DNA from: Paenibacillus swuensis
Lineage (GTDB): Bacteria; Bacillota; Bacilli; Paenibacillales; DY6
DNA: 64,000 bases
Direction of reading: 5' to 3'
NCBI RefSeq assembly: GCF_001644605.1
Contig: NZ_CP011388.1
Span: 3,128,501-3,192,500, forward strand
In this document: positions 13,140 through 14,351 of the stretch, in pieces
How the letters are laid out: every line of letters begins with the position of its first letter
Numbering within the stretch: the first letter of the stretch is position 1
The notes under the pieces: generated by a model
What the model saw: only the letters and a program-made list of their open reading frames with translations
Told to the model about the DNA's origin: nothing
Databases searched by the model: none
Program-made: the position numbers and the translations under genes

Positions 13140-13168
13140 TTGTTGATCCCGGTTTGATGTGATACAAT
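13140..13168 (+). promoter_or_regulatory. Promoter upstream of the murC-distal hairpin
   Basis: TTGTTG (13140-13145), 17-base spacer, TACAAT (13163-13168). It lies after the murC stop but before the hairpin at 13197-13232, so its transcript would begin near 13175 and immediately meet that hairpin before the nuclease-like gene at 13277. Confidence 0.45.
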
Positions 13169-13196
13169 TCTTCCACATATGAAAGTGGCATAGCAT

Positions 13197-13237
13197 GCCC
13201 TGAATTCTCTCTTAAGAGGGAGGATTTGGGGCTTTTT
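13197..13237 (+). terminator. Strong terminator after murC / in the leader of the nuclease-like gene
   Basis: A 15-bp stem including G-U pairs (13197-13211 with 13218-13232; loop TTAAGA) followed by TTTTT. It ends the valS-folC-murC transcript and could also attenuate transcription from the promoter at 13140-13168. Confidence 0.8.
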
Positions 13238-13276
13238 GGTATTGTTTTTAAATTAGAATGAGATAGGGGGATATTC

Positions 13277-13945
13277 TTGGGGTTTACGGAGGAGCACGAG
13301 CGATGGTTGCAGCAACATTTGGCAAGCAGGACCGGTGAGCGCAAAGATCGTCTGAAGCGTGGGCATGCGCATGGGGAACGATTGTTTTGTGAGAAGGTGT
13401 GGTGGCCTTTAGTTGGCACATTGGAGTACTTGCACCCAGAATATGAAGTGGCGGATTGGAGAGGGCGGCCGTATTTTGTGGATTTTGTATGGAAGAGAGG
13501 CTATGTGAATGTGGGACTGGAGATCAAATCATTTGGGACGCATGTGCAACATAGGGATCGGTCCGGTTTTCGCAAAGAAAATAATCGGGAATTGTACATT
13601 AGAGGACGGGGGGTGGAAGTACTATCGGTATCCTATGATGAAATTGTAGAGAATCCTTCATTGGTTATGTCTTTATTACAGCCCATATTTGCACCGTTGA
13701 TGCATAGAAAAGAATCGGAAAAACCATTTACTCGAAATGAACGAGACACCTTACGGCTTGCTGTGCGGCAGGGTGGTTTCATTCGTCCAGTCGATGTGAT
13801 GAATGAGCTGGAATTGGGACGCAAGAGCGTAGTGCTCATCATACAAAGTTTGTGCGAACAAGGTAAGTTATCCCCAGTGAACAACGGTGCTCGTACAACC
13901 AAATATGAATTGAACTGGTCAGAGATGGACTCGTGGAGAATTTAG
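13277..13945 (+). CDS. Nuclease-like (PD-(D/E)XK, DUF559/Vsr-like) protein with C-terminal winged helix
   Basis: Not an assigned gene. The 222-residue protein starts at TTG 13277 behind GGGGG. Residues 30-125 look like a small PD-(D/E)XK nuclease of the Vsr/DUF559 kind: an N-terminal acidic residue (E35 in HGERLF), D69 in RPYFVDF, and E82-I-K84 in VGLEIKSFG, in the usual order and strand context, followed by a strand-helix unit (VEVLSVSYDEIVENP). Residues about 152-212 resemble a winged helix (TRNERDTLRLAVRQGGFIR, then VMNELELGRKSVVLIIQSL). I recall proteins with similar N-termini as multicopy, poorly characterised genes in Paenibacillaceae; that is memory, not a search. The stop codon overlaps the first unit of a 51-bp tandem array. 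It sits between two conserved blocks as an apparent insertion. DNA binding and cleavage are inferred. Confidence 0.65.
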   Translation: MGFTEEHERWLQQHLASRTGERKDRLKRGHAHGERLFCEKVWWPLVGTLEYLHPEYEVADWRGRPYFVDFVWKRGYVNVGLEIKSFGTHVQHRDRSGFRKENNRELYIRGRGVEVLSVSYDEIVENPSLVMSLLQPIFAPLMHRKESEKPFTRNERDTLRLAVRQGGFIRPVDVMNELELGRKSVVLIIQSLCEQGKLSPVNNGARTTKYELNWSEMDSWRI

Positions 13946-14351
13946 TGTGCCTGGGGAAATTAAATCAGCGGAAAAGGGTGGATGGGTAGAAAATAGTGTG
14001 CCCAGGGACATTAATCTGGCGGATATAGGTGGCAGGGGAGCGAATAGAGTGCCTAGGGGCATTAAACTGACGGATATAGGTTGTAGGAGAGCGAATAGTG
14101 TGCCTAGGATCATTAAATCGGCGGATGTGGGTGGATGGGGATCGAATAGAGTGCCTAGGGACATTAAATCGGCGGATGTGGGTGTATGATGATCGAATAG
14201 AGTGCCTAGGGACATTAAATCGGCGGATGTGGGTGTATGATGATCGAATAGTGCGCCCAGGGACTTTAAATCAGCTGAAATGGGTGGATGGGTAGAAATT
14301 AGTGTGCCCAGGGACATTAAATCATCGGATGGTTTTGGGGGTAAAGATTGG
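13944..14351. repeat. Eight tandem 51-bp direct repeats
   Basis: Units start at 13944, 13995, 14046, 14097, 14148, 14199, 14250 and 14301, each exactly 51 bp with no insertions or deletions. Units 5 and 6 are identical; units 1, 2, 7 and 8 are more diverged and unit 8 decays in its second half. The best-conserved part is GTGCCTAGGGACATTAAAT at the start of each unit, whose first 12 bases form a near-palindrome centred on CCTAGG. A partial ninth relic may be GCGAATGGTGTCCC near 14366-14379. There are no unique spacers, so it is not a CRISPR array. Fifty-one is 17 codons, so long frames are open on both strands, but none has a convincing ribosome-binding site. The region to 14400 has no other gene. 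Confidence 0.95.

Follow-up and report, generated by a model that had tools for sequence, protein, structure and literature searches.

We analysed a 64-kb stretch of the genome of Paenibacillus swuensis (hereafter the window, meaning the whole stretch of DNA; contig NZ_CP011388.1, positions 3,128,501 to 3,192,500), in which a gene for a nuclease-like, winged-helix protein runs directly into a tandem array of short DNA sites. The gene (13277-13945, plus strand; list of open reading frames (ORFs) and homologue alignment) encodes 222 amino acids (aa) from a TTG start, which fits because M1, F3, E5 and E6 are invariant among the close homologues of the protein. Its stop codon, TAG (13943-13945), forms the first three bases of the first of eight 51-bp units (13943-14331, plus strand; Tandem Repeats Finder and pattern search), whose 23-bp cores are TAGTGTGCCTAGGGACATTAAAT-like imperfect dyads. 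Genome pattern matches place the core starts at 13943, 13994, 14045, 14096, 14147, 14198, 14249 and 14300, 51 bp apart without exception, and Tandem Repeats Finder reports a 51-bp period with 7.6 copies and a score of 403; the rest of the window has nothing comparable. Gene and array are thus present as in a preliminary description of this DNA, which had also recognised them as a compact insertion at the murC/spoIIB junction. This too is borne out: the gap between murC and the spoIIB-like gene, in which the cassette sits together with a conserved 5' leader, measures 1333 bp, compared with roughly 83-240 bp in 18 other genomes of the order Paenibacillales, where the junction is short and uninterrupted. 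In one further genome, G039, the gap is 845 bp, and the junction (L267/L240, C1 about 159600-160500) has been filled independently by a leader of the same kind and an unrelated Uma2 nuclease gene.

Results

We found homologues of the window gene in 41 of 61 related genomes, with as many as ten in a single genome, and a sample of 200 genomes from across the class had them in 25. They lie mostly at unrelated genomic positions and several are frameshifted or interrupted; of the six copies in the window's genome (G000), two have stop codons inside the aligned stretch. The residue and array statistics given here refer to 102 full-length homologues. A tandem array lies within 300 bp downstream of 34 of these genes, and an upstream array accompanies seven. 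Random chunks of three of these genomes held 7 arrays per 795 kb, and therefore about 0.4-0.6 downstream arrays would be expected among the 102, so that pairing of gene and array by chance is excluded. The downstream arrays mostly begin within 60 bp of the stop codon, and their period is exactly 51 bp in 15 cases and 52 bp in three, while none of the seven upstream arrays has a 51-bp period. The unit sequences are unrelated between loci, but as a rule a unit contains an imperfect dyad whose short centre is rich in A. In 24 of 25 arrays the copies differ less in this dyad than in the remainder of the unit; the conserved feature is a 22-23-bp dyad with a 51-52-bp pitch, and not one fixed repeat. 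Within an array the spacers are near-copies of each other. Clusters of at least three similar 22-mers were found in the downstream 350 bp of 79 of 99 homologues, compared with 5 of 198 shuffled sequences and 5 of 97 control regions upstream, and homologues with no detectable array usually still carry sites. Clusters of four sites typically have spacings of 50-52, about 60 and 50-52 bp, with the orientation ++-- (two inverted pairs) in 17 of 31, and the same two-pair plan can be read by eye in members from outside the order, which lack the leader. The homologue at locus L147 of genome G030 departs from the common arrangement, in which arrays lie downstream only: a 63-bp array with 17 to 19 copies stands on either side of it. 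Within the window's genome, the paralogue L067 (G000:C1:2919181 onward) runs at its stop codon into about 11 copies of a 40-bp unit; this unit contains a perfect 9-bp dyad.

Site sequence co-varies with protein relatedness and spacer sequence does not, the Mantel r being 0.27 for protein and site (permutation maximum 0.08) as against 0.03 for protein and spacer. Among the 25 closest pairs, site similarity tracks identity in the winged helix (rho 0.40, p 0.047), as opposed to identity in the nuclease domain (rho -0.04). One pair of homologues, L122 in G024 and L126 in G031, have nuclease domains that are 97% identical, winged helices that are 50% identical and different downstream sites, an apparent switch of specificity judging from the sequences. 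L070 and L075 form a pair of the same sort: over the two pairs, nuclease identity is about 90% or higher and winged-helix identity 50-74%.

In some of these genomes the sites are also dispersed, at intergenic positions. Arrays were searched one at a time, and reversed-pattern controls were zero in the searches with the G052, G014 and G057 sites. The site of the G052 array had 51 matches in G052, 27 in G060, 25 in G048 and 15 in G038, which are the genomes holding the matching gene clade, and none in G010, G026, G050 or G000, which are without that clade. The matching gene is broken in G048 and G038, and the sites in G038 are mostly single or few, and degenerate. The G014 site had 89 matches in G014 and none in five congeners, and the G057 site was found in G057 only, among eight genomes. 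Cognate sites are dispersed only in genomes with the cognate gene clade. The window's genome contains four further arrays with the 23-bp core and 51-bp pitch, and across the five arrays the mean pairwise identity is 0.82 for the cores and 0.50 for the spacers. The preliminary description had likened the locus to RAYT/REP pairs, as a DNA-acting protein beside its own repeats, and had proposed a survey of homologues for a following array. The arrays and site clusters beside most homologues, the co-variation and the clade-limited dispersal agree with that comparison, although the repeat unit is not a fixed one. It had further counted repeats commonly found away from the gene as a sign against such a pairing; these exist locally, as solo arrays, but not at the level of genomes. 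In G060, copies of an element (L221-L228) that carries about two to five 52-bp units lie directly after the intrinsic-terminator U tracts of many genes; a left end similar to that of this element lies near one G052 array (L219), and Rfam gave for the element a single sub-threshold SgrS-like match, elsewhere in L227. Two distant 112-bp arrays in the window's genome (L169:13843-14596 and L176:17761-18297) share a GGCGCGATATCGCTAC-like motif, and are possibly dispersed arrays of another paralogue.

Residues 1-145 of the window protein (13277-13711, plus strand) form a predicted DUF559/Vsr/EDxHD-like domain of PD-(D/E)XK fold with E34, D69, E82, H89 and D94 as candidate active-site residues, and about residues 150-215 (13724-13921, plus strand; AlphaFold model and fold matches) a predicted winged helix. 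The site proposed earlier, E35-D69-E82-K84, holds in part. D69 (102 of 102 homologues) and E82 (101 of 102) are conserved, but the first acidic residue is E34, position 35 being R, and position 84 has K in 35 of the 102 and D in 41. H89 is present in 101 of 101, the combination of D69, E82 and H89 in 101 of 102, and all of E34, D69, H89 and D/E94 in 60 of 102. As residue 84 is often not K, the canonical ExK lysine is not the rule, and Vsr/EDxHD chemistry would be a better fit for the nuclease half than canonical ExK chemistry. A Pfam scan of 50 homologues matched DUF559 in 36 and MTES_1575 in 22 at an E-value of 0.1 or less, as well as winged-helix families; the best E-values for this family were about 1e-5 to 1e-6, homologues reached at best 2e-5 against DUF559 (PF04480), short of the family cut-off, and the window protein itself had no DUF559 match at an E-value of 10 or less. 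In a fold search with the AlphaFold model, the C-terminal third matches MarR/ArsR-type winged helices (Z 10-11). Because winged helices filled the whole-protein search, the nuclease domain was modelled alone; its closest fold was then the catalytic domain of I-Bth0305I (Z 7.6, root-mean-square deviation 4.5 over 95 residues), a match below the safe level. Pfam and fold matches thus support the earlier reading of a putative nuclease joined to a winged helix, weakly so for the nuclease half. NCBIfam and PADLOC gave no strong assignment for the protein, and a viral origin is without support, as no relative was found in IMG/VR contigs.

The leader of the window (13186-13240, plus strand) was delimited by covariance model R1, a terminator scan, folding and covariation. 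In general, a leader comprises a hairpin with a 4-5-bp stem and an AAGMA loop; the 3' arm of this hairpin doubles as the 5' arm of an intrinsic terminator. In the window, 13187-13190 pairs with 13196-13199 around the loop TAGCA, and the 3' arm of this hairpin overlaps the 5' arm of a terminator at 13197-13232 with its U tract at 13233-13237 (terminator scan). This alternative pairing suggests that the leader may act by transcription attenuation. The window leader scores 34.3 bits against R1 (E 2.5e-8 in the window), has a folding z of -3.5 and is the best leader match in its own genome. A leader was found upstream of 84 of the 102 genes by a loose search and of 74 at strict score, compared with 1 of 457 controls. 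Covariation is seen in 51 leaders, and 23 different stem sequences all keep pairing, a figure of 100% that is biased because the sequences were chosen partly for pairing; the control rate (1/457) is the fair measure. The covariance model gave 107 strong matches in the 61 genomes. Of these, 77 stand before a listed homologue, at a median distance of 38 bp; others are found ahead of homologues that are degraded or divergent, or of Uma2, PDDEXK_2 and similar genes. In G039 (L240, L247-L249) the same leader stands before a Uma2 gene and PDDEXK_2/Rpn-like genes, and is therefore common to unrelated PD-(D/E)XK nuclease genes. Rfam has no family matching it. The cassette promoter probably has its -10 box at TACAAT (13163-13168, plus strand), about 18 bp before the first leader stem; this box was not among the matches of a simple promoter scan and is assigned from the sequence, TATAAT-like boxes standing at a similar position before most homologue leaders. 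A match between the array unit and the leader hairpin was rejected: the shape is similar, with an A-rich loop, but the sequences in general do not match.

Discussion

Leader, nuclease/winged-helix gene and cognate sites together make up a three-part cassette, and we propose, with a probability of about one half, that its enzyme drives the propagation of the sites in a manner resembling the RAYT/REP systems. Most likely, the winged helix would bind each 22-23-bp imperfect dyad as a dimer. As neighbouring sites are 51-52 bp, or five helical turns, apart, two dimers would be placed on the same face of the DNA and could cooperate. The nuclease domain would then nick or cut the DNA inside a site or next to it, and the arrays would be lengthened, shortened and copied as stretches that carry sites are repaired by recombination with one another. 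The two inverted site pairs would be the basic form, tandem arrays would be amplified pairs, and solo arrays would be copies made in trans. In EDxHD enzymes a nuclease domain is tethered to DNA-binding parts, and dimers form on a target almost 60 bp long (PMC3943268); the resemblance of the nuclease fold to such an enzyme makes the two-site geometry plausible. What the data show directly is the layout of the cassette, the fixed pitch, the co-variation of protein and site, the clade-limited dispersal of sites and a conserved active site; that the enzyme binds the repeats, cuts them and spreads them is what we infer. A wider reading, in which these cassettes form an undescribed, class-wide family of self-propagating repeats, with a homing-endonuclease-like nuclease plus winged helix that copies five-turn site pairs through the genome, a leader RNA that switches the system and also controls Uma2 and Rpn nucleases, and paralogue specificities that evolve through the winged helix, is more tentative, and we place it somewhat short of even odds.

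Several observations weigh against enzyme-driven propagation. Some 20% of the homologues have less than three downstream sites, the consensus of the window's array has a dyad that does not stand out significantly from shuffled sequence (p 0.13), and for the 40-bp array of paralogue L067 there are no copies outside its own locus. The correlation of site with winged helix (rho 0.40) is borderline, its pairs lack independence, and when all pairs are used, partial correlations (0.10 and 0.10) do not separate the two domains. The nuclease domain has modest fold matches (best Foldseek E 5e-3, highest Z 7.6), and the predicted local distance difference test score of its model is below 50 at residues 87-110. 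The solo arrays of G060 lie inside a dispersed element of 244-462 bp with conserved ends, just after terminator U tracts, so that another mobiliser may have spread the arrays there; this terminator-targeting element could be such an additional mobiliser, or else the actual unit of transposition. Finally, the empty-site comparison for a solo array in G010 was not clean, the matching place holding 1.9 kb of other sequence.

The protein might instead do no more than bind. It would then control expression, or be titrated by the arrays, for example as a toxic defence nuclease that is held harmless; the arrays would grow by replication slippage, and cutting would be aimed at foreign DNA. The MarR/ArsR-type winged helix, a weak similarity to the AbiEi antitoxin helix-turn-helix and the position of the sites, which adjoin the gene in most homologues, are all in keeping with this. 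The same leader also precedes Uma2 and Rpn-type genes, and Rpn nucleases have been reported as toxin-antitoxin anti-phage systems (PMC10327210), which makes models of binding or defence the more possible. However, the sites lie downstream of the gene and not at the promoter, arrays are present at many other genomic places where a simple regulator or antitoxin would not need them, and there was neither a homologue in viral contigs nor a strong PADLOC match, and on balance we regard this explanation as unlikely. Somewhat less likely again is passive spread, with an unrelated transposable element moving the arrays, slippage expanding them, and the nuclease gene merely lying beside one copy or being a secondary user. 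The arrays of G060, which ride in a terminator-targeting element with conserved ends, are what such a process would produce, and some solo arrays of G000 also lie just after terminators. Passive spread leaves unexplained, however, why 79 of 99 homologues at unrelated genomic positions have site clusters, why the 51-bp pitch is fixed despite unrelated sequences, why protein co-varies with site and not with spacer, and why no site is found where the gene clade is absent.

That the arrays are platforms for chromosome bridging or segregation, or are centromere-like, and are used by a nuclease-derived DNA-binding protein, seems improbable. Judged from the layout, five-turn phasing, dispersed intergenic positions and several sites per array would suit bridging, but a genome can have several divergent paralogues whose sites all differ, and copies are often broken, which is unlike an essential system, and the active-site residues are nearly invariant. 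A coding origin of the array, as a minus-strand protein of 17-aa repeats, or its dismissal as microsatellite noise, can be given hardly any weight. A 132-aa minus-strand ORF (13919-14317) does span the array, but this long antisense frame exists only because 51 is divisible by 3; the coding repeat was rejected since units of 52, 40 and 125 bp in relatives cannot keep the frame, and the enrichment of arrays is far above chance.

By analogy, and by the logic of its parts, the closest known system to the proposed propagating cassette is RAYT/REP. In the RAYT (TnpA-REP)/REP/REPIN/BIME systems, imperfect-palindrome repeats lie beside a single-gene DNA-processing enzyme and occasionally form evenly spaced tandem arrays (PMC2817692, PMC3116915). 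Both systems have one enzyme gene beside imperfect palindromes, a repeat of its own for each enzyme variant, inverted site pairs and evenly spaced tandem arrays, and in both, palindromic repeats that match the enzyme are scattered through the intergenic DNA of its genome, a trait seen here except for the L067 array. In contrast to RAYT/REP, the Paenibacillales enzyme is Vsr/EDxHD-like with a winged helix, the pitch is fixed at 51-52 bp, there is an attenuator-like leader, and the gene is not flanked on both sides by inverted REPs, its sites being nearly always downstream only. No Y1/HUH tyrosine transposase (Transposase_17) was among the families shown in the Pfam scan of 50 homologues. The EDxHD homing endonuclease I-Bth0305I is the closest fold match of the nuclease domain, but here we saw neither an intron or intein nor an interrupted gene around the locus, the gene has its own site cluster, and many paralogues occur per genome. 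The REase-like DUF559/MTES_1575 family, of the Vsr/COG2852 superfamily, is the best sequence family for the nuclease half; we found no repeat association described for DUF559 such as that seen here. Rpn/PDDEXK_2 and Uma2 nucleases are likewise encoded by PD-(D/E)XK genes, with the same leader in G039, but their sequences are unrelated and no tandem array lay beside the copies examined. Unlike those of a CRISPR array, the spacers are near-copies and not unique, and the ORFs read next to the window array and next to L062-L064 included no cas gene. Searches of open-access papers on Paenibacillus repeats, DUF559/Vsr, RAYT and terminator-inserted miniature inverted-repeat transposable elements turned up no account of the system, which looks new as a combination of enzyme and sites, and looks like a variant if the kind is taken as any enzyme with cognate repeats.

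If enzyme-driven propagation is correct, an enzyme-plus-repeat system would have arisen independently outside the RAYT lineages with an unrelated nuclease, and the spread and persistence of such repeats would become testable in a second, simpler setting for which site, spacing and active site are predicted. Dozens of protein-site pairs with changing specificity offer a natural data set for the reading of DNA by winged helices, and the leader ties nucleases of several families to a single regulatory RNA signal. Arrays of this kind probably explain many of the variable-number repeat loci of Paenibacillus genomes.
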